Assembly (NCBI GenBank): GCA_030142905.1
Contig: JASJOG010000162.1
Coordinates: 143,501 to 207,500, forward strand
DNA: 64,000 nt
Reading direction: 5' to 3'
Origin: Heliopora coerulea
Lineage: Eukaryota; Cnidaria; Anthozoa; Scleralcyonacea; Helioporidae
Made by a program: the position numbers and the translations under genes. Of the stretch, positions 1-35,821 are shown in pieces. The notes under the pieces were generated by a model that did not search any database, was not told the DNA's origin, and worked only from the letters and a program-made list of their open reading frames with translations. Numbering within the stretch: position 1 is the first letter of the stretch; the number at the start of each line of letters is the position of its first letter.

Positions 1-1
1 T

Positions 2-1408: not shown

Positions 1409-1466
1409 AATACTTTATCAGCGAAGCTGTTTAGCAAATAGACTTATTGTTTAAAATTCTGCCAAA

Positions 1467-17616: not shown

Positions 17617-17622
17617 TTTCAA
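17617..17622. repeat. Target-site duplication, left (TTTCAA)
   Basis: Six bases identical to 35816-35821, directly abutting the two ends of the Polinton. Six-bp duplications are the usual Polinton integration footprint. Confidence 0.92.
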
Positions 17623-18048
17623 AGTAGTCTATAATATGGGGATTCTAGCACATTTTGGGATTTGACTAAATTTCCACATTTTCAAAATAGACAAAAATAG
17701 TCGGGGAAAACCCTTTTCCTTGTTTACGTAATTTTCAGCTGCTTCACTACAGCTTCGCTCGATCACTTCCGGCGACTTCTAGACTCTTCCAGGAATTTGT
17801 TAACGTTACCGGGAACTTCAACACATTTTAAAAACGGGTCAAAACTTTTCAAAGTGTCTTGGGGGAATAACCTAACACAGCAAACTGATAAATTCCAAAC
17901 ATTCCATACATACCAGATCTCCCTAACAACTAGCCTCACTCGATGTCAACAAAAAAACTATTTTCGGTTTGCTCCGTTGTTAGGGATATCTGGAATGTAT
18001 GGAATGTGGGGAAAACCCCGCAACGACAAGCGGGTAATTACCTTTTTT
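17623..18048. repeat. Left terminal inverted repeat of the Polinton
   Basis: About 426 bp, reverse-complementary to 35389-35815 with high identity over its whole length. It starts AGTAGTCTATAATATGGGG. In this element class the TIR ends serve as protein-primed replication origins and integrase substrates. Confidence 0.95.
17900..18006. repeat. Nested palindrome inside left TIR
   Basis: 107-bp inverted repeat with outer arms ATTCCATACAT / ATGTATGGAAT and inner arms CTCCCTAACAAC / GTTGTTAGGG, loop about 45 bp. It is conserved in all three TIRs in the window. Confidence 0.85.
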
Positions 18049-18103
18049 GACAGAATTTTAAACAATAAGTCTATTTGCTAAACAGCTTCGCTGATAAAGT
18101 ATT

Positions 18104-21100
18104 TTACGGTTTAAATCCAAATATATTCTCATAAGTGTCAATCATTTCATTCATGTAATGACCAAATGCAAGAGTGTCTATTTTATTTTCAAGTATGTTT
18201 CGTTTGTCATCTTTATATGACAAAGCAATCTTTTCAACACTTTCTGTATACAGTTCATGGTTTCTATGTCTTATCAAATTCATTTTTCTTATTTGTTCTT
18301 CTCCATCAAATAAACAATCTTTGTAATTTTGGAATGTTATTTCTTTTTTAATTACATTTTTCTTAACACCTTTACATTTTTTTTCTTCTTTTCCTTTGTT
18401 GTCTTCGCCGTTTCCACACATTTTGTAAGCATATAATTTTGCTCTCAAACCAACAAATTCTTCTATTTGTTTTCCACCACATTCATCTTTCATCATTCCA
18501 ATAACCTTTTTGTTTAATCCAGTTTTTATCCCACTTTTATGATCTTTTAAGTAATTACTTGTATCAAACATTTTTTCTACATCTGGAGAAATATCTTTAT
18601 AAAAATCTTCGGTTTTAATTTCATACATTAAACTATCTGTATCAGTAAATAATAATGATGCATTTTCGTCATATTTTTTCTTAATATAATTATAATGAAA
18701 ATCATACATTAAAGTTTTACTAAGATCTAATATACTCATTCCTAAATATATTGGTTTATTCAACATAATTTTAGTCTTATATTTATGTATTGCAATTAAA
18801 TTTTCAGAAAATATCATTCTACTTTTAAAATTACTTTTTGAAAATAATTTTAATGCTTTTTCTTGTCTATTTACCAATTGTATATCAACTTTATTTCTTA
18901 CATTTTCCATTGTTTTTCCAAATACTGAATTATTCATCAATTTGAAAAAATCTTTTTCAAAATCATTTTTTGCGTTTATTCTCAAATTTGTATTCAAATC
19001 AATATATTGCTTCATGAAATCTTCTTCATAAAATTTAATTCCTTTGTGAATTCGAGTACAACGAAGCCCCAATTTTTCATACAATTTCAAGTTTTCACAA
19101 TGTAAAACATATTTTTCTTTATTATTTAAATTTGGAATCAGTTTTTCAACTTGGCCAACCTTTAATCTTTCTGGTGCAAGAGGATACTCATTGTGTGAAT
19201 CATGTAAATCTTCTGGATATTCTAAATCAACTTCTAAAATACAACCGGCCTTCGGGTCGTCTGCGATTTTTTCCCAATTATTTAACTCATTTTCATTCAT
19301 CCATTTGAAATCTTTCACAGGTAATTTTTTACTCATTGCCCATCCATATAAATTATTTGCATCTAAATATGGAAGATAAACACTATCTTCTTTAGGGTTG
19401 TATTTGTTTTCCATATATTTGTTATTTGCTTTTGCATATCTTTTTACAATAGTTGAAATTCCACCTCTTATTCCTTTTTCAATCATTAGATACATTTGCG
19501 GATCAGACAATAGGTCCAATTCAATTTTTGTAATTTTTAACATTGCATCCCAAGCTAATCTAGGTGAAGTAAAATACCAAGCAGGATCTAATTTATAATT
19601 TTGTTTACAAACTTTTCTAAAATTTTCAAATACATCAGCTAAAAGCATCACATCAGTTTTTAAATATAAATCATGATATTGTCTCATATTTTTAATATTA
19701 AATTTATTCCAAACATTTTGTGCGTGTTCATAATCTTCATCACTTATATTTTCATCATTTAATTTAGAATAAAAACATTCTTTATCAGGCAATTTTTCTT
19801 CTTTTAATTTTTGAATACTATCAAACCAATCATATGGAAAAACACCTTTTCTAGTTAATAATTGCCTTTGTTTTTCATTTTTATAAAATTTCTTTAACAT
19901 ATTTAATTCATTTTTATCTAAATTATTAACTAAATTTGATAAACTAGTTTGCATAAATTTAAAACTATCAATAAATCTAATTTTTCTTTTTACTTCAACA
20001 ATTTCTTTAATTTTATACTGGACCTGCGGCCCTGTCGTTTCACTGTCAATAATTAATTCTTCACACTCAATAATATTTTCTTTTGATCTATTTTGTAGTT
20101 GTTTTTTAGTTATTATGTCTGTTTTTTGATATTTACCAACAATAAATTCTTTTGTAAATGAAATGTATTTTTCCTCAGTGTTTGGTATACAATCAATTTC
20201 ACCTTCTGAAACACCAAGATTTTTAATAAACAAATGACTGTCATAGTTTTGTAAATTATGAAATATAACTGGGATAAATTTTGGATTTTTCATTTTTGAA
20301 TTACAACTAACACAAGCAGCTCCACGATATTTTCCAGTGTAATGACAATGATCCATAACTTTTTTACCTTCATTTTCAAATTTGATTCCACAAGCATAAC
20401 AATTTTCTGCAGTTCTAAAATCTACTTTATCCTTTTCACTTAATATTATCTTTTTTTGAAAATTTAAATTTCTCATATATTTTTTTAATATCATTTTCTA
20501 AACTTTTTACAAATTTTAATGAAATATCGAAATCAGGTTCACCGGGTTTTTTAGAACATTTTACTAATTTTGGTTTATATAAATTATCATCAAAACATTT
20601 TATCAAATAACTATATCCAGATGGTTCATGTTTTTGGGTTTGTTTTGTTTTATCTCCTACACCGCTAAGCGGTGTGACCTCCAGTCGATCGTTTATATTT
20701 TTAAGACAACATTCAAAATCTGCATAAATCACAAATGGGACATCATGCATTCTTTCATAATTTCTAAACTTTAATTTTTCACCTTTATCTGGATAAACAG
20801 TTTTTCCACATTCATACTCTTTACAATATTCTAAATGATTTTTATAAACATTTTCCTTACTAAAATGTTGTAAACAATTATCACAAATATGTGTTTTCTC
20901 TTTGTGTTTACTAACCTGACTTGAAAATAATCTACTCTTATTTTTACTCAAACAATAATGTTTGTCTCCATTTTCATTTGTTATTAACAATATATTTACA
21001 CGTGGTTGTTTTTCATGATTGTTCAAATTAAATTTACTTACTCTCAAAGGAAAAATTTCATGATTTTCTTTTCCAAATCTTTTTTCTTCGTTGTACCCAA

Positions 21101-22220
21101 ATAAATTAATTGCAATGTTATTATTTTTTTCAAATTTATCAATATCAGAAAATCCACATGGAAATTTCACATCTTTAACATTAAAATTCTCAGCTTTCTT
21201 TTTCAAAATTTTTGTAATTCTTCCAGGATTTTTTAAGTTGGGATTAGTTTTCAAAAGTTCATTTATTACAACACACCATAATAAACACTTTTGATCATCA
21301 TTTTCTGGGTTGATAATTGCTTTTTTATTTTTTAAAAACTCTGGTAAAGGAATATAAGATGAAGCAAGTAATCTTTTAATTTCATTAATATTGAGAATTA
21401 CTTTCAAACCTTTATGAAATTTCCACAAACTTGAATTTTTTAAAAATTCTTCAAAACTCAAAATAACTTTTTGCGTCATTTTTTCATATATTTCGTCAAA
21501 ATTATTTCCTTCAAAAATTTCTTCATAGTAACTATGAAAATGAGCATTATCCACAGTTTGTTCTCCTGTTGCGGGGTTTGTTTTTGACATCAAACACACA
21601 AGAGTTATTTGTTGTTTTGTGCTTGGATATTTTTTGAATTTTTTAATTACCAATGGTTTTATTTTTTTCAAAAGAGTCAAAGGATCATATAAAGACAATT
21701 CAAATTTTTTCAAATTCAATTCATATCTTTTCGTTACATTCAAAGCTTCTTTATCCAATTTAAATTTTGCAGTTGGGGTTGAAACTTTACCTTGTATTTT
21801 GTTAAATATATCTAAAACATTATCTTTCAGATGATTATACCAATTTGTTATTTTTTCTTTTCTATTATTCAAGGGTGTATATTTATCAAATAAATTAAGT
21901 ATTTTATCTTTACTCTTGTTAAATAAATCATTTGCTTTTTGTTTTGATCTTTCAAGTAAATTAATGTTTAAATTTTTTTTTGGTCTTAAAGGTTCTTGTA
22001 ATTTTTCTTCTATAATTGTTTTGTCTAAAATTGATGAAGAAATTTCTTGATTTTTTCTTGGTCTTCCTCTATTTCTAACAACAATTCGTTCATTTTGTCT
22101 TTTTTCTGGAGGTAATGTTACTGGCCTTCCTCTATTTTCGCGTCTTGGTCCTACAAAAGAACCAAAAGGATATTTTCTTGGTCTTCCACGACCGCGTTTT
22201 GAACTTCACTCGATATTCAT
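18104..22220 (-). pseudogene. Protein-primed DNA polymerase B (two lesions)
   Basis: About 1,370-codon gene read from an ATG at 22220. The N-terminus carries three AT-hook-like GRP motifs (RGRGRPRK, NRGRPV, NRGRPRK; about 22195-22050). Next come a zinc finger (CDNCLQHF...H...C), the exonuclease motifs YADFEC (about 20715), HNLQNYDSH (about 20255) and YHDLYLKTD (about 19665), and an EndoVII-like zinc-binding segment (CYACG...DHCHYTGKYRGAACVSCN). Polymerase motifs LDANNLYG (about 19360), NNSVFGK (about 18925) and FTDTDS (about 18640) follow. Lesions: a TGA at codon 5 (22206-22208), and a +1 frame offset at an A7 run (20451-20457) that splits the gene into 20436-21872 and 18104-20494. All catalytic residues remain. 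Either lesion could be a sequencing error at a homopolymer (A7) or real. Confidence 0.92.
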
Positions 22221-22286
22221 CTTTTGTTATATATGTTTTTTTTTTAAAGACAAAAAAAAAAAAAAAAAATTTTTTTTGGGTTGTGG

Positions 22287-22294
22287 TCACGTGA
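22287..22294. promoter_or_regulatory. TCACGTGA palindrome upstream of PolB
   Basis: Perfect 8-bp palindrome containing the CACGTG E-box, about 70 bp upstream of the PolB ATG and next to a long A/T tract. E-boxes are bound by host bHLH-ZIP factors. Use as a promoter element here is inference. Confidence 0.35.
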
Positions 22295-22318
22295 TTAGAT
22301 TTAAAAAAAAATAACTGA

Positions 22319-22633
22319 TTACTGAATTTTTTTTAATATAAAAATATTAAATGATGAATATAATTTTTTTAAATGTGATTTTAATATTTCTTTTGGTTTC
22401 AATATAATTTTATAAGATTCTATAAGAGTTTCTTCTTCATCATATTCTCCATATTCAATTTCATATTCGTTAAAAATACAATATTTTTCATCATAATTTA
22501 TTGTAAATTCATGATGTGGTAATATTCCTTCACCTGTAATTTCAGCAATTTTATTAAGAAAAACATAATAAATATATTCTTTATCATTATTTTCATAATC
22601 TTCTTGTTTTAAATATTTTTCAATTATATGCAT
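22319..22633 (-). CDS. Acidic hypothetical protein (Polinton)
   Basis: 104 residues from the ATG at 22633 (MHIIEKYLK...), chosen because it follows TATATATAATAAAA, the start context used by the other genes of the element. An upstream in-frame ATG at 22720 would overlap the next gene. The product is rich in E, Y and D (EYEIEYGEYDEEE) and ends in a basic hydrophobic helix. No family is recognised. It lies between PolB and the NUMOD1-like gene on the same strand. Confidence 0.6.
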   Translation of the reverse strand: MHIIEKYLKQEDYENNDKEYIYYVFLNKIAEITGEGILPHHEFTINYDEKYCIFNEYEIEYGEYDEEETLIESYKIILKPKEILKSHLKKLYSSFNIFILKKIQ

Positions 22634-22709
22634 TTTTATTATATATAAATTTTCCTTTAAACAAAAAAATTTTAAAAAAAATAAAAAATAGCTTTGCTGA
22701 ACTTTCAGT

Positions 22710-23057
22710 TCAACAGTCATAAAAAATCAAAAATTCTTGCCCATTAATTTTCAAATCTTTTTTATTATTAATTCTATATTTTATACTTCCCGCATTTTTA
22801 TTAAAATTTTTTGCAGCAGATCCAAGACTTTTAAAATTTAAGATTTCACCAGTTGCTCTATTTATAGCTATTACTGGGACTGGGTTTTTCATTTTTTCTC
22901 TACAATATTTCTCATACTTTTCATTTGGTTTGCTTATTTCAAATCTAAGCATTTCTTCAAGTTGATTTTTGTTAAAAGTTTTATAATATTTTATTTTTCT
23001 TTCTCTTGCAATATTCCACAATTGTTTAAATGTTTTGTGTTGATAATGTTTTCCCAT
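22710..23057 (-). CDS. NUMOD1-like DNA-binding protein (Polinton)
   Basis: 115 residues. The N-terminus (residues 5-40, KTFKQLWNIARERKIKYYK...NQLEEMLRFEIS) resembles a SAP/Rho-N-type helix pair. The C-terminal half (PVIAINRATGEILNFKSLGSAAKNFN...SIKYRINN) resembles a NUMOD1 helix-turn-helix repeat (V..I...TGE...F.S...AA......I...I). These repeats normally accompany GIY-YIG or HNH homing endonucleases; no nuclease domain is present. Start context is CTTAAATAAATG. Possible roles are DNA binding in replication or regulation; this is inference. Confidence 0.6.
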   Translation of the reverse strand: MGKHYQHKTFKQLWNIARERKIKYYKTFNKNQLEEMLRFEISKPNEKYEKYCREKMKNPVPVIAINRATGEILNFKSLGSAAKNFNKNAGSIKYRINNKKDLKINGQEFLIFYDC

Positions 23058-23091
23058 TTATTTAAGATAAATTTTTTTTTAAAGAAAAATT

Positions 23092-23494
23092 TTATAAAAA
23101 TTTATAAACTATGTAGCCTCCTGAAAGTCCAACCAGAAAAAAAGCAACATTTTGATATTCTTTCATTTCATCAGAAGGTTCATAATAATCTTTTAATTTT
23201 GGTGGTTCCCTGTCATTTTCTTCATTTTCAAGAGATTTTAAACGATTATTAATTTCAGCAAGATTTTTCAAAGACATATTTGTTTTATTTATATCAGCAT
23301 TTGCATCAGATAATTGCTGTCTTAATTTTTCAATTTCTTCTTTTCTTTTTACTTGCTCCTCATACCATTTTTCCTTTGCTTCACTAAGTTTTTCCATTGC
23401 TTCATTATGTCTTTTTATCTCTTTTTCACATCCAGAATGATTTAGCACCTGCAAAAGCAACTGCATTAAATAATCCACCAACTACTGTTTCCAT
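23092..23494 (-). pseudogene. Coiled-coil, C-terminally membrane-anchored virion protein candidate, frameshifted
   Basis: The conserved start context TATAAATAAATG places the start at 23494, but that frame runs only 22 codons to a TGA at 23426-23428. The long frame (23092 to about 23450) encodes EIKRHNEAMEKLSEAKEKWYEE... with heptad-like charged repeats (predicted coiled coil, about residues 20-90 of the open frame). A conserved-looking PSDEMKEYQ segment and a C-terminal hydrophobic span (NVAFFLVGLSGGYIVYKFL) follow. The first frame also gives a small, hydrophobic N-terminus (METVVGGLFNAVAF). Both pieces would make sense joined, so a frameshift near 23430-23460 is likely. Function unknown; the membrane span suggests a virion membrane or vertex role. 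Confidence 0.6.
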
Positions 23495-23517
23495 TTATTT
23501 ATACATTTTCTCATTTT

Positions 23518-23751
23518 TTATGATTTGAATGGATCAGAAGGAATCCACTTTTTGTCTTGAGCATATTTAACTGCAAGCGATGATAATCCAACAGCTGCTG
23601 CAAGTTTTAAAGTAGGAACTAAACTAGATGGAGTTGATAAACCATCACTAATTACTTTTCTTGATATCATTCCAACTCCAACAGCACCCAATGTAATTAT
23701 TGTAGAATCATATAATTCATTCATAACTTCTTTTCTATTCATTTCACCCAT
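23518..23751 (-). CDS. Small hydrophobic protein (Polinton)
   Basis: 77 residues beginning MGEMNRKEVMNELYDS, with two hydrophobic stretches (STIITLGAVGVGMIS, about 16-30, and LVPTLKLAAAVGLSSLAVKYA, about 44-64). The start is preceded by TGTATAAATAA. It sits between two other membrane-protein genes on the same strand. Family not recognised; a small virion membrane or matrix protein is plausible. Confidence 0.6.
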   Translation of the reverse strand: MGEMNRKEVMNELYDSTIITLGAVGVGMISRKVISDGLSTPSSLVPTLKLAAAVGLSSLAVKYAQDKKWIPSDPFKS

Positions 23752-23802
23752 TTATTTATACATATAAAAAAAAAATTTTTGTAAAATTTATTTTACAAAT
23801 TT

Positions 23803-24357
23803 TCATAGGTTTTCAATACATGACTTACTAGTTGGTGGATTACATTTAGTAATTTCATAATCATTTTTATTTATGATATTAACTTTTTTGTTTTTACTTT
23901 CACTTTCACTTGCAGCTTTGCTGAAGCTTTGCTTCTGAGGACTTCGTCCGATGCTGAGTCCGAAGAACGATCGCTCATTTTGTTCACTAAGTTTGCTTTG
24001 CTCAGTTTCACTTCGCTCAGTTTCACTACGTTCAAGTCTTTTGTCGCTTTTATATGCATAATATAGACCTCCAAGTGCAGCAACAATTGTCACACCACCA
24101 ACAAAATACCTGAAATCTACATAATCATTTATTTCTTTTGTAAAACTACGGTCGCTTTGCTCAAGTTCGTGGTCTGCTTCACGTTCTCTTCGCTCAGATT
24201 CTCTTTGTCTTGCTTTTCTTTCTTTTGCTTCTTTTGAAATTTTTGCTAATTTTTTTCCCAATTCAACTTTTCTTGGGTCTTTTGCTTTTTCATCTGCTTG
24301 CAGCTTTGCTGATTTTTCAACTGCTGTTACTTTATTTGTTTTACTGTCTTCACTCAT
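23803..24357 (-). CDS. Charged single-span membrane protein with SETE repeats (Polinton)
   Basis: 184 residues. A lysine/arginine/glutamate-rich N-terminal region (about 1-75) is followed by one membrane span (YFVGGVTIVAALGGLYYAY, about 83-101) and a cytoplasmic-type tail with a repeated LERSETERSETEQSKLSEQ motif. At the DNA level, 23913-23949 packs four perfect tri-loop mini-hairpins into 37 bp, so part of the tail looks like inserted hairpins. Start context TTATAAATAAATG. Function unknown. Confidence 0.6.
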   Translation of the reverse strand: MSEDSKTNKVTAVEKSAKLQADEKAKDPRKVELGKKLAKISKEAKERKARQRESERREREADHELEQSDRSFTKEINDYVDFRYFVGGVTIVAALGGLYYAYKSDKRLERSETERSETEQSKLSEQNERSFFGLSIGRSPQKQSFSKAASESESKNKKVNIINKNDYEITKCNPPTSKSCIENL

Positions 24358-24378
24358 TTATTTATAATTTTTTTATTC

Positions 24379-24654
24379 AAAAGTTATTTAAAATTTATTC
24401 AAGTTATTCATAAGTAAAATTAAATAGATTCAAATAAAAAACAAGTAAATTTTTTTATTTAAAACAGCTTTGCTGTCATGCTTCACGTTATTTAAAAGTT
24501 ATTTAAAATTTATTTAAAAGTTATTCAAAGTTATTCATAAGTAAAATTAAATAGATTCAAATAAAAAACAAGTAAATTTTAAATAGCCACAAACAGCAAA
24601 GCTGCGGCAAGCGGTTATTTAAAATTATTTAAAATTTATTCAAAATTTATTTAG
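24379..24654. repeat. Non-coding AT-rich direct repeats in the Polinton
   Basis: The only sizeable gene-free gap inside the minus-strand block. A unit of about 50 bp (GTTATTCATAAGTAAAATTA...AACAAGTAAATTT) occurs at about 24403-24452 and again at about 24530-24579, surrounded by TTATTTAAAATTTATT repeats. Two mini-hairpins (ACAGC-TTT-GCTGT at 24464-24476 and CAGC-AAA-GCTG at 24594-24604) sit next to the copies. It could be a regulatory, packaging or replication site, or simply decayed sequence. Confidence 0.7.
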
Positions 24655-25836
24655 TTATTTAGTTATATATTTTAATATTTCATCTTCGTCAAAATCAACA
24701 CCATATTTTTTACAAAGAAGATAATGGTTTAAAACAATTTCTGGATATTTCATTTTTCTTGTTGAAATATATACATATAATATTTCTCCATCCATTTTTC
24801 CGTGGTCTTTATTTTTTGATCCAAGATAAAATTTCATATTTGGAGTGTGATGCTTTCTAGCGCTTGTATAAAAAGAAACAATTTCTTTTCCATTCACATA
24901 AAGATTTCCTTTTTTTACACCGCAGAGATTACCTTGATCCCAATGAACAGAAAGACATATTAATTTGTTTATTTGAGTTGCATTTGCTTTCAATTGCCAT
25001 CTGTCATTTGAAATTGAATAAACGGATGAATTTGTGATATATAATAATGAATTACGATAAGAAATACCAAAATTAGAAGGATCTGGTTGACTTGCTGTTT
25101 CATTATCTACGATTTTAAACAACGAAACCTCATTGTTAGACGAATTTAATGATTTTAAACCATATACAAAATAAAAATTCAAGTGTTGATTGCTTAAAAT
25201 ATCTTGTGTACTAACTAAATGTAAATTGTTGCTATTTGATATAAGATTAGTGTGGTATTGAACACAATAAAAATTATTATTAATTGTAGATTTTTTGAAA
25301 AATGGTTGTTTGTTTGGATCATCTTGATTGAAAATCCAATCTTTTTTTCTTGACAAATTTAAAAGTTTTTCAACCTTTTTATCACTTCCAGTGTATTCAA
25401 TATAATCATCATCATCTTTAACTTCAAAAATTCCTAAATCATCCATTTGTAAATTATAAATACACGACAACGAAGTTGTCACAATATCATTTCTCAAAGC
25501 TTTAGTTTTGCCATCAACGTATTTTTTATTCACAACATGATAATTAGAAGAAGGAGAATAATTTGCAGCGTGAACAATATGATTATTTCCCATATCCAAA
25601 TCTCCTGTCATTGTTCCACCAGATAAAGATAATTTGGAATCAACATATGATTTATTTGTTAAATCAGTATTTCCAGATGGTGTTGCACTGGAAATTACTT
25701 TATAAGAAAGCATATTCAAATTTCCATGCATTGTTCCGCCAGATAAATATAATTTTTTATCAAATTCTTTTAATAAAAATTTTTTTTGACTTTGTGTTTT
25801 TGAACTAAAATCATCATCATCAAATATAACACTCAT
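24655..25836 (-). CDS. Fibre-like receptor-binding protein, paralogue 2
   Basis: 393 residues. Residues about 25-110 contain two repeats of the form LSGGTMTGDLDMGNNHI...(N)KKYVD, a beta-structured stalk unit seen in phage and viral fibre proteins. The remainder is a predicted beta-sandwich lectin-like (ConA/LamG-type) head, with WIFNQDDPNKQPFF, LICLSVHWDQG, NLYVNGKEIVSFY and a terminal GEILYVYISTRKMKYPEI...YLLCKKYGVD segment. It shares architecture and C-terminal motifs with the neighbouring gene at 25860-27332 and is probably a tandem duplicate. Likely role: attachment of the particle to host cells (inference from architecture). Start context TGTATAAATAAATG. Confidence 0.75.
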   Translation of the reverse strand: MSVIFDDDDFSSKTQSQKKFLLKEFDKKLYLSGGTMHGNLNMLSYKVISSATPSGNTDLTNKSYVDSKLSLSGGTMTGDLDMGNNHIVHAANYSPSSNYHVVNKKYVDGKTKALRNDIVTTSLSCIYNLQMDDLGIFEVKDDDDYIEYTGSDKKVEKLLNLSRKKDWIFNQDDPNKQPFFKKSTINNNFYCVQYHTNLISNSNNLHLVSTQDILSNQHLNFYFVYGLKSLNSSNNEVSLFKIVDNETASQPDPSNFGISYRNSLLYITNSSVYSISNDRWQLKANATQINKLICLSVHWDQGNLCGVKKGNLYVNGKEIVSFYTSARKHHTPNMKFYLGSKNKDHGKMDGEILYVYISTRKMKYPEIVLNHYLLCKKYGVDFDEDEILKYITK

Positions 25837-25859
25837 TTATTTATACAATTAAATTAATT

Positions 25860-27332: not shown

Positions 27333-28046
27333 TTATTTTATAATAATTTCCAATAAAACATTTCCAATAGATGATGAACCACTACCACGCTTCACGACAA
27401 CTTCGTTGTTTCCTTCCACTTTGAATATTAACTCATTATAAATTCCATTTGATAATTTTATTCCTCCTCCCGGTCCTGTTTCTTCAGGTGGATAAATTTT
27501 TGAGACACTTCCTTTTAGTGTTTGTTCTGTTGTTATTGGAATTTGAATAAGAATGTCACTTCTTTTACCATCTACAAAATTTTTACTTTTATCAATCATA
27601 TTACAGCTTATGTTTACATATTCCAAGTTGTTATTAATATTTACCTCGCTGTCACTCTCTGTTAATGTATTTGCTTGTATAACTTTATTTTCTGGAAATC
27701 CTATGATTGGTCCAAATGTTTGTAAATTTAATGTTTTATCTGATTTTATTGTACATTTTCCAGAAAAATCAATTTGTTCTAATTCTATTTTCCCAACATT
27801 TTCAAATTCAGTTTTTAAAATATTAAAGGTATAATATCCATCTTTAAAGTTAACTTTTCTGTTAGCACCTTGTGTATCATAAGTATAATGATGAATATTT
27901 TTATCCAAATTATCATAATTCCAAAAAATACTTACTGACTTTACAAACATTTTATGGCAATTGTTTAATATAATTGGTTCATCTAATGAAATTACTTTAT
28001 TAGAGTTTTCATCTTTTGTTATGAAGATTTTTAAAGATATTGTCAT
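27333..28046 (-). CDS. Penton/minor capsid protein candidate (single jelly roll)
   Basis: 237 residues with no membrane span and a high beta content. Its layout follows Polinton minor capsid proteins: an N-terminal strand with EPIILNNCHKMFVKSVSIFWNYDN, then GYYTFNILKTEF, IKSDKTLNLQTFGPIIGFPENKV, EVNINNNLEYVNISCNMIDKSKNF, ILIQIPI and a closing ELIFKVEGN...VLLEIIIK. In the family this forms the pentameric vertices. It is directly upstream of the two fibre genes, consistent with fibre attachment at the vertex. Start context TTATAAAATAAATG. Assignment rests on motif order and context; structure prediction would confirm it. Confidence 0.72.
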   Translation of the reverse strand: MTISLKIFITKDENSNKVISLDEPIILNNCHKMFVKSVSIFWNYDNLDKNIHHYTYDTQGANRKVNFKDGYYTFNILKTEFENVGKIELEQIDFSGKCTIKSDKTLNLQTFGPIIGFPENKVIQANTLTESDSEVNINNNLEYVNISCNMIDKSKNFVDGKRSDILIQIPITTEQTLKGSVSKIYPPEETGPGGGIKLSNGIYNELIFKVEGNNEVVVKRGSGSSSIGNVLLEIIIK

Positions 28047-28097
28047 TTATTTTATAATATATTTTATAATATATATTTTGATTCGAAACTTTGTTTC

Positions 28098-28637
28098 TCA
28101 GAGCACGTACCGTGCAATTAAAATTCCACCAACAATCGATAAAGATAAAATAATAAAAGATTCGCTTTTCATAGTATTTTTTGATGATGTTGAAAAGTTA
28201 TTTAAAGGTTTTTGTAATTTATTATTTTTTAAAGGTTTTTGTGATTTATCTAAAGGTTTTTGTGATTGATCTAAATTTTCAAGTTTTTTTAATTCAATGT
28301 TGTGTTGTTTAACATCTTTTGTGTTGGATACTCCATAATAATTTAAATTTTTATTAATTCCAAAAACCATATTTTCATCAGAAACTTTTAATTTGTTATT
28401 ATATCCTTCAATAGGATTTTTTAAAATAATTAAAGATGATGGAATTAACCATAAAGTTGGACTTATAGCAGTATTTAAAACCACATTAGTTGACGAAATT
28501 GCTTGATTCATATTATTAATCCATGTTGTCATATCATAATTTATTATAGAATCTTCAAAAATTTGTCTAAAAACTTTTTGTGTTTCTAAAGCTGAAGCTC
28601 TATTTGAAACAATACTTTGTCTTGTTCTCGCTTGTGC
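28098..28637 (-). CDS. In-frame downstream segment with C-terminal membrane span
   Basis: The frame is open from immediately after the TAA that ends the 28638-29630 gene; the first ATG inside it is at 28532 (144 residues). It lacks the element's usual TAAATAAATG start. The product has a helical beginning (NRASALETQKVFRQIFEDS, encoded before the ATG), lysine-glutamine repeats (QSQKPLDKSQKPLKN) and a C-terminal hydrophobic span (SFIILSLSIVGGILIARYVL). It is therefore either the readthrough or lost C-terminal part of the upstream protein or a separate gene from 28532. At 28085-28115, just after it, lie two mini-hairpins. Confidence 0.6.
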   Translation of the reverse strand, partial: AQARTRQSIVSNRASALETQKVFRQIFEDSIINYDMTTWINNMNQAISSTNVVLNTAISPTLWLIPSSLIILKNPIEGYNNKLKVSDENMVFGINKNLNYYGVSNTKDVKQHNIELKKLENLDQSQKPLDKSQKPLKNNKLQKPLNNFSTSSKNTMKSESFIILSLSIVGGILIARYVL

Positions 28638-29630
28638 TTAAAGGATTGTATAAAGATATGCTTCAATGCTGTGATTTAATAATTCTGTTCCCTTTTTGAT
28701 TAATCCATCTGAAATTTTTGGAACAAATTTTTTGTAATCATTTTGTGTATCTCTAATTTGACCAGGACCGTGTTGATACCCCCTCCATGATGTAGTCATA
28801 TCAATTGCATGAGAATCTCCAATGTGTCTTTTTTTTCCTGAAATTTCTTGCCATGTCCATTTTGGATAGTGATCTTTTAAAAAACCAGCATTAAATTTAT
28901 AAAATGTTTTATCATCACCATTTCTCAATTGCCACATAATTCTTCTAACTGTAAAATATAGATGAAATCTCATAAATGATGTAATTTGTTTTGGAACATC
29001 AGCTGAAAATAATAAATGTTGTATTGAAATTCCACATCCATAAGTTGCAATCCATGTTCCTATAATGCTTTGAAAATATGACTCATTAAGTGACCATTTT
29101 GCATTATCATCTGTAGTTATATTTAATCCGGGTAAATTACTTTGAAAATAATCTGTATTGTTTACATAAATCCTAAACTGATTTATAGGATAACTTAAAA
29201 CATATTGTGTAGGAAATTCATCCCAATAATATGATTTTCCAGTATAACCAACATGTCTTTTTCCTCTTGGTAATTCTTGTATACTTCCACCAAGTTTCCA
29301 AATTTTTGGAAAGTGAGGTTTTGGTTTATTTATTGTTAAATACTTTGTCATATTTGGATCATTTTTAAATGTATCTGAATTTATGTCTGTTGAAACATCG
29401 AGCCCCTGGCTCGCCGCTTCGCGGTTTTTGAAATATGTTATTGTTTTTTCCCAACTTCCATCTTTATTAATATCATGTTCAAAATAAAACTTTGACATGT
29501 CTGCATATGGATATTTTTTCAAAAAATTTTCTTTAAACTTTTTATCTAAAATTTTTCTTTCATTAACCACAAAATCATAATTTTTTCCATAATATTTTTT
29601 CTCAGCTTTTTCAATGTCAGTTGAAGTCAT
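28638..29630 (-). CDS. Conserved-looking structural protein candidate, 330 aa (Polinton)
   Basis: 330 residues, first gene of the minus-strand block, transcribed away from the integrase. No family is recognised with confidence. Features: a charged N-terminus; two tandem-like motifs, ELPRGKRHVGYTGKSYYWDEF (about 118-138) and EISGKKRHIGDSHAIDMT, suggesting an internal repeat (KRH(V/I)G); tryptophan-rich segments (WSLNESYFQSIIGTWIATYGCG); and FHLYFTVRRIMWQL. No signal peptide or span. A pair of mini-hairpins (29401-29425) is inserted in-frame within the N-terminal third. It ends at a TAA that is followed by open in-frame coding to 28098. Start context AAAATAAATG. Confidence 0.6.
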   Translation of the reverse strand: MTSTDIEKAEKKYYGKNYDFVVNERKILDKKFKENFLKKYPYADMSKFYFEHDINKDGSWEKTITYFKNREAASQGLDVSTDINSDTFKNDPNMTKYLTINKPKPHFPKIWKLGGSIQELPRGKRHVGYTGKSYYWDEFPTQYVLSYPINQFRIYVNNTDYFQSNLPGLNITTDDNAKWSLNESYFQSIIGTWIATYGCGISIQHLLFSADVPKQITSFMRFHLYFTVRRIMWQLRNGDDKTFYKFNAGFLKDHYPKWTWQEISGKKRHIGDSHAIDMTTSWRGYQHGPGQIRDTQNDYKKFVPKISDGLIKKGTELLNHSIEAYLYTIL

Positions 29631-29657
29631 TTATTTTAATGACTATTATAAAAATAA
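29631..29657. promoter_or_regulatory. Divergent promoter gap
   Basis: Only 27 bp separate the divergent start codons at 29630 (minus) and 29658 (plus). Both sides read (T)ATAAAATAAATG-like. The whole control region of both blocks must lie here or overlap the coding sequence. Confidence 0.6.
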
Positions 29658-30785
29658 ATGAACACAAAAATGGATGAAAAAATGTTTGTTATTGAACAAG
29701 AGTTAAGAGATATTTATTACAACCCAGAAACAGGTTATCAATCTGCAGAAAGACTTTATCAAAAAGTAAAAGACAGACTTCCAAAGGGGTTAAACGTTAG
29801 TAGAAAAATTGTGCAAGACTGGTTAAAAACACAAGATACTTTTACAAGATACAAAGCAATTGTTAGAAGACATAAATTTCAAAAAACATTTGTTAAAGAC
29901 TTGGGAGACCAAATACAAATGGATTTAATTGATATGAAAAAATATAAAAAAGATAATGAAGATTATTACTGGATTCTTACAGCTGTTGAAATTTTGAGTA
30001 GATATGCATTTGCTATTCCTGTCTATAGAAAAGATACTTACAACATGACGTTAGCTGTTTCAAATTTGCTTAAAAAATTCAGAAAAAGATTTGGTAAATA
30101 TCCAAATGTAGCTCAATTTGATGAAGGAAAAGAATTTTATAATGTTGGCGTAAAGTGGTTATTGAAGGACCGTGATGTTGAATATTTTTCTTCTAAATCT
30201 GTTAAAAAAGCAGCTATAGTTGAAAGATTTAACCGAACTTTAAAAACATCCATGTGGAAATATTTCTACAACAATAAAACTTATAATTGGACCTCTGTTT
30301 TGAAAAAACTCGTAAATAATTATAATAATACTAAACACAGTGGTATATTAATGAAACCTGTTGATGTAAATGAGTCCAACAAAGACCAAGTGTGGAATAC
30401 ATTATATGGTTATCCATTGGGAGATTTACCTTTACCTAAATTCAAAATTGGTGATACTGTTAGGATTTCAAAATATAAGAATATCTTTAAAAAAGGTTAT
30501 GAAGCTAATTTTACAGAAGAAATTTTTAAAATTGTAAAAGTATTTAGAGGTGATCCAAACATGTATGAAGTGGAAGACCTTGAGGGAGAACCAATTATTG
30601 GGAAATTTTATGAACAGGAATTGTCTGCTGTGAATGATGTGAGTGATAAAGATCACTTATATAAAGTAGAGAAAATATTAAAAAGAAAAAAAGTGAAAGG
30701 AAAAAATATGGTGTTGGTAAAGTGGGAAGGTTATGACAATAAACATAACTCTTGGATTGAAGAAGAAAATATTCAAAATGTATAA
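29658..30785 (+). CDS. Retroviral-type integrase with C-terminal chromodomain
   Basis: 375 residues. An N-terminal helical region (1-75) is followed by an RVE/DDE core with D in QMDLIDM (about 94), D in AQFDEGKEFYN (about 154) and E in AAIVERFNRTLK (about 188). A small SH3-like region (FKIGDTVRIS, about 258-267) follows, then a chromodomain at the C-terminus (YKVEKILKRKKVKGKNMVLVKWEGYD...SWIEEENI, about 330-373) with the aromatic cage residues Y, W and W/Y. All catalytic residues are present. This protein inserts Polinton DNA with a 6-bp stagger, matching the TTTCAA duplication. The chromodomain would steer integration to methylated histones (family knowledge). Confidence 0.95.
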   Translation: MNTKMDEKMFVIEQELRDIYYNPETGYQSAERLYQKVKDRLPKGLNVSRKIVQDWLKTQDTFTRYKAIVRRHKFQKTFVKDLGDQIQMDLIDMKKYKKDNEDYYWILTAVEILSRYAFAIPVYRKDTYNMTLAVSNLLKKFRKRFGKYPNVAQFDEGKEFYNVGVKWLLKDRDVEYFSSKSVKKAAIVERFNRTLKTSMWKYFYNNKTYNWTSVLKKLVNNYNNTKHSGILMKPVDVNESNKDQVWNTLYGYPLGDLPLPKFKIGDTVRISKYKNIFKKGYEANFTEEIFKIVKVFRGDPNMYEVEDLEGEPIIGKFYEQELSAVNDVSDKDHLYKVEKILKRKKVKGKNMVLVKWEGYDNKHNSWIEEENIQNV

Positions 30786-30790
30786 AATAA

Positions 30791-32251
30791 ATGGATAATA
30801 ACGGTTTTGATGATATAGAATTAAATGAGCGAAATATAAAAGACCACGAGGAAGAAGAGGAATACAGAGAAGAACGTGAGGAGGGCGAAACAAGTGGAGG
30901 AAATTTTGCTGACACTGATTTAGACACTGGAGAAACAACTATATTACTCCCAGACCAAAACACCAGAGTAACTAGAGTTAAAGACCCTGATAACACCAAG
31001 TCTAAAGACCGCGACAGCGGCAAGCAAAGCTTGATTTTAAAAAAATTTAAAAATTTAGGAGGAGTTAAAAGATCAATGACTTTTGGTAAAAAAAATACTT
31101 TCAAAGATATATTTGATTTCACCCCTGAAAAGAAAAATGGAAAAAATAATACAATATTGTTAGACAAAACTAGGTTTGAAAGAAATGAAAAAGGAAATGT
31201 TTCAATTATTTACAAAGATAAAAGAATTGGTAATGTCGGTGATAACAATAAACTAAAATTATTTGTAAAATGGAATAAGAGTTATGTTAATGAATTCAAA
31301 GATATTTTAGAAAAAGCAAAAAAAGAATATGAAAAAACACCATATTCTATTATAGATAGAAAAATATCTGATGGAAGACAGGACCCAAAGGGCAGCGATC
31401 GAGCGGAGCTCTCAGCAGCGAAGCTGCAAGCTGATATTGAAATGAAAGAGATTGAGAGAAAAAATATAGTTGAAAATACCATTTCACAAATTAATGATAA
31501 AGTTGATAGAATAATTGATGAAAATAAATTGATTAAATTAGTTAGAGATGAAAATGATCCAAGAAGATCATTATTTGATTCAGATGATTTAAGAGAATTT
31601 AGAGGTTTATTAAATTTTGAAGAAGCCGTCTCTCCGGTTGGTGGTGAAGACTATTTTGATTTATCAGAAAATGAAAGAAAAAATGTTTTACGTGAAAAAA
31701 TTAGATCATTTGATAGAGAATATGAATATTGGAAAAATAAATCTGATTTAGAAACAGCTGAACCTCAAAAAAGTATATATAAGAGTTTTTCAGAAATTGC
31801 AAAATTATATTCAGATAAAACAAGAATTAAAAATAACGAAAAACCAATCAGTGAAGAAGGAATACAGATTTTAAATGAAAATGCTGAAGAATCTGACCTT
31901 GGAAGATTAGAAAGATTTAAAAAATGGGCAAAAGAAAATCTCGCTGGTTTATCAGCAGTAGCAATTTCTGTAGCAGGTATAATTACAGCAATAGTTATGG
32001 GAGCAAGAAACGCATTAAAACAAGGTGCAAATGCAGTTGGAAAATTGGGAAAAGCAATTGCAAATATAGGTAAAAATTTTGGTGCAGTCATTTCAGCAGT
32101 TTTAAATTTAATTTCACAGATATTATCATGGGGTGCAAACGGTATTGCTTTTCTTGCCAAAAATATATGGATATTAGCTATTGCAATTACTTACTTTTTA
32201 TACAATGAATACCGAAAGGACAAAGAATACCGAAAGAGTAATAAAGATTAA
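30791..32251 (+). CDS. Large acidic protein with hydrophobic C-terminus (Polinton)
   Basis: 486 residues starting 5 bp after the integrase stop. The N-terminal 110 residues are highly acidic and likely disordered (DHEEEEEYREEREEGE). The middle (about 110-380) is mostly charged helix. The last 100 residues contain GLSAVAISVAGIITAIVMGA, an alanine/glycine-rich amphipathic stretch and WGANGIAFLAKNIWILAIAITYFLYNEY. At 31401-31427 two mini-hairpins lie in-frame. No family is recognised. The position between integrase and capsid genes and the membrane-active C-terminus suggest a virion or penetration-related protein; this is inference only. Confidence 0.6.
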   Translation: MDNNGFDDIELNERNIKDHEEEEEYREEREEGETSGGNFADTDLDTGETTILLPDQNTRVTRVKDPDNTKSKDRDSGKQSLILKKFKNLGGVKRSMTFGKKNTFKDIFDFTPEKKNGKNNTILLDKTRFERNEKGNVSIIYKDKRIGNVGDNNKLKLFVKWNKSYVNEFKDILEKAKKEYEKTPYSIIDRKISDGRQDPKGSDRAELSAAKLQADIEMKEIERKNIVENTISQINDKVDRIIDENKLIKLVRDENDPRRSLFDSDDLREFRGLLNFEEAVSPVGGEDYFDLSENERKNVLREKIRSFDREYEYWKNKSDLETAEPQKSIYKSFSEIAKLYSDKTRIKNNEKPISEEGIQILNENAEESDLGRLERFKKWAKENLAGLSAVAISVAGIITAIVMGARNALKQGANAVGKLGKAIANIGKNFGAVISAVLNLISQILSWGANGIAFLAKNIWILAIAITYFLYNEYRKDKEYRKSNKD

Positions 32252-32280
32252 AAAAAATTTTTTTTTTTGTATAATAAAAA

Positions 32281-33519
32281 ATGAATAGAATAGACAAATT
32301 ATATCCAGGATATAAAAGATCAAAAATGAGTGATATTAAAGGAATCAGAACAAGACATGTTGTAACTTTAAATCCAAATTCAGTAAATCCAGAAGAAGAC
32401 CTTTATATAGATATCCCAAAATTAAACCCTAATTTATGTCTTGTACCCGATTCATTAAGATTGTTATTTAATTTTAAAAATTCAAACACCAAGTCTTGGT
32501 TTTTAAATAATTTATCAAAATTGTTAAAGAAAAGATTAGTTGTTAAATTTGCTGGAGAAATTGTTTATGATAATAGCGGAGAATCTCTTTTGGAAATTTA
32601 CAAAGATCTTTGGAAAACTAAATCCAAAAGAGCAGATATGGTTGAATATGGGTTAGCAAGTGAAAATTTGAGAAAATTAATTTCAAAAGATGACTCTGGT
32701 GCAACAAGTGGAAGTGCAGAAAAAGCTTCTGATAAACTAATGTTTGATATTTATGGAACAAAACAGTGCTTAAAATTGGAAAAAATACTCTCGGATCATG
32801 GATTATATGCTCCTTATGGGATGATTAATAATTTTCAATATATTTTAACTTTCCCAAAAGCAAGTGAAATTATGGTAGCACAAAGTGGTGAAAGTGTTGG
32901 TGGATATAAGTTGGAAAATTTAGAATTGGAATATGAAACAATTGAAAACCAGGATTTAGCAGTTGATGTTTTAACAAATTACACCACAGGAAGATCACTA
33001 TCATATAATTATGTAACTTTGATGAAAACGGTAGAATGGGATAAAAACGCAACTTTACATAATGAAACCATAAATATTCCACGTAAAAGTATGAAAGCAG
33101 TTGTACTGTTATTTAGAAATAAAACTGTAACAGATAGTGAGCAATTTGTTTATCCAAATATAACAGATGTCAAAATTAGTGTTGAAGGGGTTCCAAATAG
33201 CATATATTCCCAAGGATTTCCGAAAAGAAGATTTTTTGAAGAAGCACTTAGAATATTTCGTTGTAATTATTTTGATTGCGATGCAGTTATGGATATTGAA
33301 AAATTCTACAAAGATTCATTTGCATTATGTATTGATTTAAGAACATTAGATGACAACTTTGTTTATGGAAACGGTAAAAAATTGGTAAATGCACAGTCTG
33401 GACTGTTGTTAGAAATTAAAAAAACTACCATTTCTGCAAATGTAATGTGTCATATATTTGTGATAAGTGATGGATTGTTAAACATTGTAAATAAAGATTT
33501 GTCTTCAATTCAATTTTGA
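32281..33519 (+). CDS. Major capsid protein candidate (double jelly roll)
   Basis: 412 residues, no membrane span, mixed beta-rich sequence. It follows the layout of Polinton/adintovirus hexons: an N-terminal segment ending in LVPDSLRLLFNFKN, then a loop with WFLNNLSKLLKKRLVVKFAGEIVYDNSGE...LLEIYKDLW, which matches the conserved LVVKFGGE-type strand. The second half has LENLELEYETIENQDLA and SYNYVTLMKTVEW, and near the end RRFFEEALRIFRC...FALCIDLRTLDDN. The size fits the family (about 400-450 residues). The packaging ATPase follows immediately, as usual. Its role would be to form the hexagonal lattice of an icosahedral capsid. A structure prediction would settle the assignment. Confidence 0.82.
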   Translation: MNRIDKLYPGYKRSKMSDIKGIRTRHVVTLNPNSVNPEEDLYIDIPKLNPNLCLVPDSLRLLFNFKNSNTKSWFLNNLSKLLKKRLVVKFAGEIVYDNSGESLLEIYKDLWKTKSKRADMVEYGLASENLRKLISKDDSGATSGSAEKASDKLMFDIYGTKQCLKLEKILSDHGLYAPYGMINNFQYILTFPKASEIMVAQSGESVGGYKLENLELEYETIENQDLAVDVLTNYTTGRSLSYNYVTLMKTVEWDKNATLHNETINIPRKSMKAVVLLFRNKTVTDSEQFVYPNITDVKISVEGVPNSIYSQGFPKRRFFEEALRIFRCNYFDCDAVMDIEKFYKDSFALCIDLRTLDDNFVYGNGKKLVNAQSGLLLEIKKTTISANVMCHIFVISDGLLNIVNKDLSSIQF

Positions 33520-33540
33520 AAACAAGATGAAAAATAAAAA

Positions 33541-34158
33541 ATGAATGACAAAAAACCATTTAATATGATAATTGTTGGAATGACTGCTTGTGGAAAAACA
33601 AAATATCTATTAGATTTTATAGAAAATGAATATAAAAATTATTTTGATTATATTTTTTTAATTTGTCCTACATTTGAATGGAATAAAACTTATGAAAATT
33701 GGAAATATGATAAAGATGAAGATTTTATTGCTATTCCTTGTGACCAAGACAACGTTGAAGATTGGTTAAAATTTATAGTTAACTTTTCAAAAGGAAGTAA
33801 AAGTTTAATCATATTGGATGATTGTGCAAGTGGAAAAAATGTTAAAAATAGAACAAGTGAATTGGTTAAATTGGGATTTAGTGCTAGACATTATAATCTT
33901 TCTGTTGTTGTAATTACACAACAATTGACATCTATTGCAAAACCATTTAGAGAAAATATTTCAAAATTGGTTACATTTTATAACCCAAATAAAAAAGATA
34001 TGACAACAATAATTCAAGAATATTTAGACCTACGGTCCGCAAGCGGTGTAGACAACCGCACAGAATTGGATAAAATTTTAGAAACGTTAAAAACCAAAAA
34101 ATATTCATGCTTGGAAATTAATTTAATTTTTCCATTTGGTTATAAAATAAATGAGTGA
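33541..34158 (+). CDS. Genome-packaging ATPase (A32/FtsK-HerA type)
   Basis: 205 residues. Walker A is IIVGMTACGKTKYL (about 10-23), Walker B is SLIILDDCAS (about 88-97), and a downstream glutamine sensor strand reads NLSVVVITQQL. These fit the small packaging ATPases of Polintons, adintoviruses and nucleocytoplasmic viruses that drive DNA into the capsid. The frame is intact. It directly follows the capsid gene, and its last 8 bases overlap the next start (ATAAATGAGTGA), so the two are probably co-expressed. Confidence 0.93.
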   Translation: MNDKKPFNMIIVGMTACGKTKYLLDFIENEYKNYFDYIFLICPTFEWNKTYENWKYDKDEDFIAIPCDQDNVEDWLKFIVNFSKGSKSLIILDDCASGKNVKNRTSELVKLGFSARHYNLSVVVITQQLTSIAKPFRENISKLVTFYNPNKKDMTTIIQEYLDLRSASGVDNRTELDKILETLKTKKYSCLEINLIFPFGYKINE

Positions 34159-34678
34159 AAATAGTGAACGTGTAGAAGTCCCGCAAATTGAGACAAGTAC
34201 AACCGCCAGTGAAGAAAAGCAAACGCAAGATGAGAGCAGAGCGAACTCTGTGAAAAAAGAAGTAATGAAAAAACGAGAAGAATTGATAAAATTGTCTGAA
34301 GATGGGGAAATTAGTCAATCAGTTCAAAATTTGAAAAAAGCGAGTGATAAAATTATATTAAAAATTTATTCTGAATATGAAATTAAACAAGCAGAAAAAG
34401 CAAACGTATTTTTAACAGATTTACTAATTAGTAAATTTTCAGATTTATTAGGAGGGTTAGAAGCAATTGAAAGTAGTGAAGAATTAGAAAAAGAACTTGT
34501 TAAAGATAAATTATTAAAAAGAGATGTAAAAAATGTAGTTGAAAAAGTATCTCCATATCTACCATATCTTGGAATATTATCTGGTGGTATTACCGTTGGA
34601 AAACATGTTATTAAAAAACAAACTAAAACAAAAGAATCAACACCTCCGACAGAAGAATCAACATTCTCAACAAATTAA
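34151..34678 (+). CDS. Lysine/glutamate-rich protein (Polinton)
   Basis: 175 residues overlapping the ATPase gene by 8 bp, with the same TAAATG start context. The N-terminal 60 residues are charged and probably disordered. A helical middle section follows, then a short hydrophobic segment (VSPYLPYLGILSGGITVGKHV, about 135-155) before a lysine/threonine tail. Family not recognised. Its place as the last gene of the capsid-ATPase block suggests a virion component. Confidence 0.55.
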   Translation: MSENSERVEVPQIETSTTASEEKQTQDESRANSVKKEVMKKREELIKLSEDGEISQSVQNLKKASDKIILKIYSEYEIKQAEKANVFLTDLLISKFSDLLGGLEAIESSEELEKELVKDKLLKRDVKNVVEKVSPYLPYLGILSGGITVGKHVIKKQTKTKESTPPTEESTFSTN

Positions 34679-34714
34679 TTTTATAATATATTGATTTATT
34701 ATAAAATTACAAAA

Positions 34715-35113
34715 TTATTCATCTTCATTTTTAGGTTTTGGTTTGTTAACATTATCATTTTTTAAATTAATTAGTGAAGCAATTATTTTATCTTTTTCTG
34801 TGTCATTTTTATTTTCATTTTCAAGAGACTTTAATAATTTTAAATGACTATTATTTTCTGAAAAATTAACCTCTTCAATAGAATTACTTCCAAAATTTGC
34901 ACCAGCTTCAAAATCTTTAAAACCGATATCAACATGCGCGCCAATTCTAAAACCGCTTTTTTTAACTTTTCTAAAATTTATTGGTGGATAACCATGAAGA
35001 TTTATATCAAGATTTGATTTTGAATTTTTATTTTTAGAATTTTCAATATGATTTTCAATACTTGAATCGTGTGAATTATTTTCACTTTTTGTTTTTGAAA
35101 TACAATGACCCAT
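34715..35113 (-). CDS. Putative myristoylated/palmitoylated protein (Polinton)
   Basis: 132 residues starting MGHCISK: glycine 2 and serine 6 fit an N-myristoylation signal, and cysteine 4 is a possible palmitoylation site. The rest is asparagine/lysine/glutamate-rich and mostly disordered. A central, more structured segment (GYPPINFRKVKKSGFRIGAHVDIGFKDFEAGANFG) has an alternating hydrophobic pattern. There is no membrane span, so lipid anchoring is the predicted membrane link. It lies at the right edge of the element, convergent with the plus-strand block (36-bp gap). Start context ATATAAATAAATG. Confidence 0.6.
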   Translation of the reverse strand: MGHCISKTKSENNSHDSSIENHIENSKNKNSKSNLDINLHGYPPINFRKVKKSGFRIGAHVDIGFKDFEAGANFGSNSIEEVNFSENNSHLKLLKSLENENKNDTEKDKIIASLINLKNDNVNKPKPKNEDE

Positions 35114-35388
35114 TTATTTATATTAAATTTTAATAATAACTAATTTTTCCGCAAATTTTACATCGAAATGTTCTAGGTTCTGAAATATAAATATAAATAT
35201 AAAGTTTAAAAACATTATTCCAAAAAAAATCTAAACAATTTACTAAATCTTAGGTAAAAATTTAGAATTTTCAAACATTTTTTACATATTGTAAATAAAT
35301 ATCTATTAGTATTTCTTAAAACTATATCATACATTTTTATTTAAAACAAAATTCTTAAAAACGCTTCGCGTGGACCTTCGGTTATGTT
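35114..35388. other. Non-coding AT-rich segment inside the right TIR
   Basis: Extremely AT-rich, no open frame of note. It ends with a mini-hairpin (ACGC-TTC-GCGT, 35361-35371) just before the TIR. Confidence 0.6.
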
Positions 35389-35815
35389 AAAAAAGGTAAT
35401 TCCCCCACCAGTCGTTTAGTGACTTTCCCCGCATTCCATACATGCCTAATCTCCCTAACAACTGAGCAAACCGAAAATAGTTTTTTTGTTGACATCGAGT
35501 GAGGCTAGTTGTTAGGGAGATCTGGTATGTATGGAATGTTTGGAATTTATCAGCTTGCTGTGTTAGGTTATTCCCCCAAGACACTTTGAAAAGTTTTGAC
35601 CAGTTTTTAAAATGTGTTGAAGTTCCCGGTAACGTTAACAAATTCCTGGAAGAGTCTAGAAGTCGCCGGAAGTGATCGAGCGAAGCTGTAGTGAAGCAGC
35701 TGAAAATTACGTAAACAAGGAATAGGGTTTTCCCCGACTATTTTTGTCTATTTTGAAAATGTGGAAATTTAGTCAAATCCCAAAATGTGCTAGAATCCCC
35801 ATATTATAGACTACT
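35389..35815. repeat. Right terminal inverted repeat of the Polinton
   Basis: About 427 bp, reverse complement of 17623-18048 with only scattered mismatches, ending ...TATAGACTACT. It also shares its 107-bp nested palindrome. Confidence 0.95.
35432..35538. repeat. Nested palindrome inside right TIR
   Basis: Same 107-bp structure as at 17900-18006 and 1509-1615. Confidence 0.85.
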
Positions 35816-35821
35816 TTTCAA
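35816..35821. repeat. Target-site duplication, right (TTTCAA)
   Basis: Identical to 17617-17622. Confidence 0.92.

Follow-up and report, generated by a model that had tools for sequence, protein, structure and literature searches.

A well-bounded Polinton of Heliopora coerulea and its surrounding population of mosaic copies

The window analysed here (the whole stretch of 64,000 nucleotides from Heliopora coerulea: assembly GCA_030142905.1, contig JASJOG010000162.1, positions 143,501 to 207,500 of the forward strand) holds a Polinton (Maverick) element with clear bounds which, in its assembled form, is neither complete nor intact, and whose value lies mainly in the surrounding population of mosaic copies. 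Its principal features are as follows (positions are those of the window; ORF, open reading frame; aa, amino acids; TIR, terminal inverted repeat; MCP, major capsid protein):

17617..17622, no strand: left target-site duplication TTTCAA, 6 bp (sequence read)
17623..35815: Polinton (Maverick) element, 18,193 bp
17623..17986, plus strand: left TIR, near-identical part, starting AGTAGTCTATAA (repeat comparison)
17987..18048, plus strand: left TIR, inner degenerate part (repeat comparison)
18104..20494, minus strand: DNA polymerase, C-terminal piece, 796 aa, endonuclease VII domain near its start (Pfam, PHROG)
20436..21872, minus strand: DNA polymerase, N-terminal piece, 478 aa, in another frame, break at an A-run (ORF list, copy comparison)
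24655..25836, minus strand: fibre 2, 393 aa, phage tail-fibre-like repeats and a laminin-G/ConA-like C-terminal part (PHROG 11338, 3.2e-6)
25860..27332, minus strand: fibre 1, 490 aa, phage tail-fibre-like repeats and a distinct head (PHROG 8378, 5.2e-13)
27333..28046, minus strand: putative penton or minor capsid protein, 237 aa (structure model)
28098..29630, minus strand: P4, a conserved gene (ORFs 28638-29630, 330 aa, and 28098-28532, 144 aa, in the same frame)
29658..30785, plus strand: rve integrase with C-terminal chromodomain (Pfam)
32281..33519, plus strand: MCP, predicted double jelly-roll, 412 aa (structure model, fold matches)
33541..34158, plus strand: packaging ATPase of the poxvirus A32 type (Pox_A32 in Pfam, 1.1e-16)
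35390..35815, minus strand: right TIR, outer 364 bp near-identical (repeat comparison)
35816..35821, no strand: right target-site duplication TTTCAA, 6 bp (sequence read)

Both strands of the element open with AGTAGTCTATAA, and the TTTCAA duplication reported by the initial annotation was found perfect on either side. The inverted arms (17621-18048 and 35390-35817) comprise 428 nt at 95% complementarity, so that the TIRs of about 426 bp described earlier are real; their near-identity, however, ends at about 364 bp, since mismatches pile up beyond that point (four in the outer 364 bp, i.e., the 98.9% identity that had been proposed for computation, and 22 further ones by ungapped position 430). 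The GC content is 27.0% in the element and 37.9% in the flanking DNA. ORFs treated as genes, 17 in number, make up 86% of the element, with all gaps between them shorter than 450 bp. From the arm divergence, neutral decay would be expected to leave 3.6-5.5 stops in the ORFs; one was recognised, stops being recognisable only in genes with known relatives. As the arm divergence may predate insertion, it bounds the age of the insertion and is no clock. The host flanks carry an inverted repeat of their own, 58 nt long at 81% identity, on either side of the element (17483-17540 and 36128-36185).

The gene content is that of a Polinton, apart from a protease that was not detected. The capsid, penton, ATPase, integrase and fibre ORFs are open, in agreement with the claim that these genes are intact, and structure models back the capsid name strongly and the penton name moderately. 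For the MCP the model is a clear double jelly-roll with an adintovirus protein among its fold matches, so that its jelly-roll assignment stands; for the penton, which in Polintons is a single jelly-roll, the matches are led by a solved penton of mavirus and by a putative viral penton, but the model itself is moderate (pTM 0.53, the predicted template-modelling score). When profiles of MCP, penton and P4 were searched against PDB sequences, no meaningful match emerged. The integrase matched rve at E 1.7e-6 (28.6 bits, slightly under the Pfam cut-off of 32.6) and the chromodomain at 1e-11; NCBIfam searches with ten ORFs added only transposase-like matches for the integrase, all under cut-off. 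Fibre 2 also matched Laminin_G_3 (0.0035, under the Pfam cut-off). The C-terminal polymerase piece matched Endonuclease_7 of Pfam (1.6e-8) and the DNA polymerase family PHROG 1907 (4.1e-12), while the polymerase part had no sequence match in Pfam, NCBIfam or PDB; from its motifs we take it to be a protein-primed polymerase of family B.

Copies of the element were sought in 429,824,877 bases on 769 contigs (the H. coerulea HiFi assembly, from which haplotigs had been purged, is described as 429.9 Mb in 769 contigs; PMC10267220). The integrase search returned at least 110 matches, 94 of them free of internal stops by our own count; because the best candidates alone were scored, this is a lower bound and is biased to good copies. 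The integrase copies of the genome thus number about a hundred or more. With the left TIR as query, 55 matches were obtained. Eighteen end pairs were examined (16 chosen from the TIR and integrase searches, the present element, and a second Polinton in the window), and the 6-bp duplication was perfect in 17 of them, including this element. Among the first 17 pairs, 16 had identical duplications, each differing from those of the others; the remaining pair, C27, lacks its left outer end. In 13 of the 16 duplication-flanked pairs the two arms were at least 99% identical over 340 bp (93.5, 95.5 and 97.4% in the others), and the full-length terminal repeats of other copies matched those of this element at 85-98%. 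Artificial joining of the two ends, raised earlier as a concern, is therefore unlikely, given the matching duplications at this copy and in 16 of the 17 other end pairs. The description of a Polinton that integrated recently, has exact ends and carries a set of capsid genes is supported.

Selection was assessed by comparing the pieces of 20 other copies, chosen by integrase similarity, gene by gene with the element. The ratio of nonsynonymous to synonymous divergence (dN/dS) was lowest for MCP (0.122) and ATPase (0.126, 19 copies), followed by penton (0.212), integrase (0.244), the two polymerase pieces (0.279 and 0.284) and the two P4 pieces (0.317 and 0.435), at a median synonymous divergence (dS) of 0.17-0.40 depending on the piece. 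Among copies with the respective gene intact, dN/dS was 0.110 for MCP (n=13), 0.199 for ATPase (n=16) and 0.263 for penton (n=20); for the integrase the ratio comes from the element-versus-others comparison. ATPase and penton were intact in 16 and 20 of the 21 copies respectively. The differences between copies thus show purifying selection on the capsid genes. Since the arms within a copy differ by less than 1% in 13 of 16 pairs, the divergence between copies probably arose mostly before insertion, and probably did so under selection that kept the capsid proteins.

The copies are also mosaic along their length. Pairwise distances of different genes were poorly correlated, ranging from r = 0.00 (C-terminal polymerase piece versus penton) to 0.61 for the strongest pair (integrase versus MCP). 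Maximum-likelihood trees of five genes from 20 copies rejected one another in all 20 combinations (p ≤0.0101 in the approximately unbiased test, AU, and ≤0.0003 in the Shimodaira-Hasegawa test, SH); several nodes were weak in the five trees, as expected if exchange occurs within genes too. Linkage decay, taken as the mean distance correlation over 20 blocks of ~400 nt, ran from 0.50 (below 500 nt) through 0.26 (2-4 kb) to 0.03 (4-8 kb) and 0.12 (8-16 kb). One pair of copies illustrates the pattern: C329 and C769 are 0-1% apart in most polymerase blocks and 0-2% in MCP-ATPase, but up to 35% apart in the P4-penton blocks and up to 41% in the fibre blocks. The change starts within the integrase gene, the divergence extends past fibre 2, and some blocks inside the divergent region are still similar (0-4%), all of which makes more than one exchange likely. 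The fibres were read in four of the 20 copies: C329 has one fibre of 653 aa, which begins as fibre 1 does and ends in a part matching fibre 2 of C769 (100% over 55 comparable residues), and fibre 2 of C769, C223 and C222 is 32%, 78% and 97% identical to that of this element.

As of 2021, Maverick particles had not been observed, according to PMC8097293; with its hundred or so copies, of which many are young, this genome allows particle formation by animal Polintons to be tested. We consider it likely, on the evidence of genes and copies set out above, that these copies inserted recently and derive from a Polinton population that recombines and probably forms particles. On the pattern of the family, the protein-primed polymerase would copy linear DNA from the inverted repeats, the A32-type ATPase would pack this DNA into the double-jelly-roll capsid, penton vertices would carry trimeric, lectin-headed fibres, and the chromodomain integrase would insert the DNA and generate the 6-bp duplication; recombination would take place between co-replicating genomes ahead of insertion, and particles would form. 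Selection on the capsid genes, recombinant copies and, in one pair, replacement of the P4-penton-fibre block on a near-unchanged backbone are what transmissible particles would predict. A more specific version has a real chance of being right, though we stop short of calling it probable: a circulating, particle-forming Heliopora Polinton would behave like a sexual population, recombining freely within one cell before insertion and swapping in the manner of serotypes a P4-penton-fibre cassette that includes the receptor-binding heads, on an otherwise almost unchanged backbone.

Several observations weigh against a particle-forming population. i) In this copy the polymerase lies in two overlapping frames, split at the A-run. 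ii) A single in-frame stop interrupts P4 between its two ORFs. iii) Peptidase families had no match at E 0.1 in any of the 23 ORFs of at least 90 aa, a search that a diverged form of the Ulp1/adenain-like cysteine protease of Polintons could escape. iv) Of 21 copies, 13 had an intact MCP gene, in one case with a shorter start. v) The penton ratio among copies (0.263) is not below that of the integrase. vi) None of the 20 other copies had all eight sampled pieces unbroken (in four, the N-terminal polymerase piece was clipped by the edge of the sampled region, adding to the "broken" scores), which indicates that inserted copies decay. vii) The integrase was intact in 20 of 20 copies, a figure biased by the choice of copies by integrase similarity. 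viii) The TIR is 100% identical over 226 bp in C329 (both ends) and C225 (one end), so that not all copies are distant. ix) Scans of IMG/VR contigs with MCP and P4 found no relatives. x) Mosaics could also stem from gene conversion among resident copies.

With the polymerase frame broken, a stop in the conserved P4 and the protease undetected, the term "complete" used in the initial annotation has to be given up: in the assembled sequence the copy at 17623-35815 has no fewer than two lesions, and it is probably non-autonomous. Both polymerase pieces share one frame in 19 of the 20 other copies (C223 is the exception), and a programmed frameshift in the polymerase as a rule of this Polinton family is thereby rejected. 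Likewise 19 of the 20 other copies lack the P4 stop, with the remaining one in a different frame, and 11 of the 13 homologues compared (427-491 aa) align beyond it in one frame; elsewhere in P4 the other copies carry their own lesions, and the N-terminal P4 piece runs through without a stop in 13 of the 20. The candidacy of P4 as the missing protease was rejected, as its invariant or nearly invariant columns hold no cysteine and its homologues have no Pfam family in common (four weak families, each in 1 of 29 members, including NLPC_P60 at E 0.049). The damage to this copy may be smaller than it looks if the polymerase frame break is a homopolymer assembly error or a slippage site, which we regard as unlikely. 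Its position at an A-run, the frame shift of C223 at the same place and the report that apparent nonsense loci of virophages were not confirmed on re-sequencing (PMC8547959) speak for this, while the single frame of the other 19 copies shows that slippage is no family rule, and the separate P4 stop would persist in any case.

Also unlikely is a purely intragenomic transposon family that multiplies in the germ line, with the capsid genes as passengers and the mosaics made by gene conversion, a known process between dispersed repeats. Such a family would suit the many dispersed copies and the fact that each of the 20 sampled showed one or more broken pieces by our scoring (in four cases partly through the edge effect). 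On the other hand, capsid, ATPase and penton are more constrained than integrase and polymerase in the comparison with this element, the between-copy dS far exceeds the arm divergence and is thus largely pre-insertion, and the divergent block of C329 and C769 spans several kilobases. Exchange between replicating genomes is therefore favoured, because the exchanged stretches are long, selection is evident and the divergence is older than insertion. Misjoining of near-identical 18-kb repeats as the source of the mosaicism is highly improbable: the copies are long and alike and HiFi reads are about as long as the copies, yet joins inside elements would mismatch the flanking duplications, which match in 17 of 18 pairs, and, gene by gene, the nearest relatives differ from one another (the median distance to the nearest is 0.0096-0.0205 depending on the gene, and it is below 0.002 in only 2 of 123 gene-by-copy cases among 21 copies).

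Known systems share parts of this picture. The vertebrate Mavericks, as described in PMC8097293, have the same AGT-starting ends, 6-bp duplications, polymerase, integrase, ATPase and two capsid genes, and their capsid genes are likewise under purifying selection, a result already published there for fish. By the same description, the Heliopora element differs from them in four respects: i) MCP and ATPase follow the integrase, whereas in Mavericks the ATPase lies in the polymerase module; ii) no protease was detected, whereas it is a Maverick core gene; iii) the modules point outward rather than to the centre; iv) penton and fibres lie on the polymerase strand.

The label "adintovirus-like" holds in part. 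Adintoviruses are defined in PMC11071296 by an integrase with C-terminal chromodomain, an OTU-like domain at the N-terminus of PolB and a hexon recognisable by BLASTP; the chromodomain integrase fits, but the OTU domain and such a hexon were not confirmed, the N-terminal polymerase piece (478 aa), in which an OTU-like domain was sought, having no meaningful sequence match in Pfam or PDB. Adintoviruses, including that of the coral Stylophora, share the chromodomain integrase, double-jelly-roll capsid protein and putative penton of the element, which departs from them, as they are presented in PMC11071296 and PMC11071308, in its endonuclease VII domain in the polymerase and its two phage-like fibres. 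A coral polinton with the terminal-protein domain as a separate gene is also recorded (PMC11071308).

Cryptophyte Polinton-like viruses, by the account in PMC12220804, carry phage-like fibres that contain Laminin_G_3-type domains and are presumed to be seated on the penton, and have separate histories of polymerase and structural genes, but their hosts are protists; Polinton-like viruses are described as mostly without the polinton polymerase and rve integrase (PMC11071308), unlike the present element. The endogenous mavirus-like virophages of Cafeteria resemble it in their many copies, conserved capsid and integrase genes and module-exchanging recombination; these are protist virophages, however, and PMC8547959 describes the recombination for particular variants (EMALE02) and not along all copies. 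A text search of the literature found no paper with both "octocoral" and "polinton", and neither "polinton" nor "maverick" occurs in the Heliopora genome paper (PMC10267220) as searched. Our searches, mostly without full-text depth, found no report of a large recombining Polinton population with fibre-region exchange in one animal genome.

The remaining ORFs of the element, and the part of the second Polinton in the window, are:

1..1976, plus strand: right end of the second Polinton, C-terminal polymerase part and TIR (copy C71:127220-145476)
22319..22720, minus strand: small ORF, 133 aa (no Pfam match at E 0.1)
22710..23057, minus strand: small ORF, 115 aa (weak matches to Rho_N, 0.0014, and NUMOD1-like, 0.0097, both under curated cut-off)
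23092..23481, minus strand: small ORF, probably coiled coil, hydrophobic C-terminal segment (sequence read)
23803..24357, minus strand: charged ORF, one hydrophobic segment (sequence read)
30791..32251, plus strand: 486-aa ORF, charged N-terminal half, Gly/Ala-rich hydrophobic C-terminus (no Pfam match above cut-off)
34151..34678, plus strand: 175-aa ORF, hydrophobic C-terminal segment (sequence read)
34715..35113, minus strand: 132-aa ORF (ORF list)

The ORF at 22710-23057 is perhaps a remnant of the DNA-binding part of a homing endonuclease. Several small ORFs (in 23092-24357, 28098-28532 and 34151-34678), as read, have one hydrophobic segment, and might encode virion membrane proteins. The second Polinton, in the opposite orientation and 15.6 kb from the first, is flanked by the duplication AAGTAG at 1977-1982 of the window and at its left end (C71:127220); it adjoins a pannexin-like region of an LRRC8 channel (3236-3970; Pfam 4.1e-41). 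Elsewhere in the window lie a tyrosinase domain fragment (41362-41943; Pfam 4.1e-16), an endonuclease and reverse transcriptase of the long interspersed nuclear element type (7613-9888), and parts of long terminal repeat retrotransposons (52581-55956 and 59722-60561) with a weak gag, reverse transcriptase with RNase H, rve and a Pao-type peptidase.

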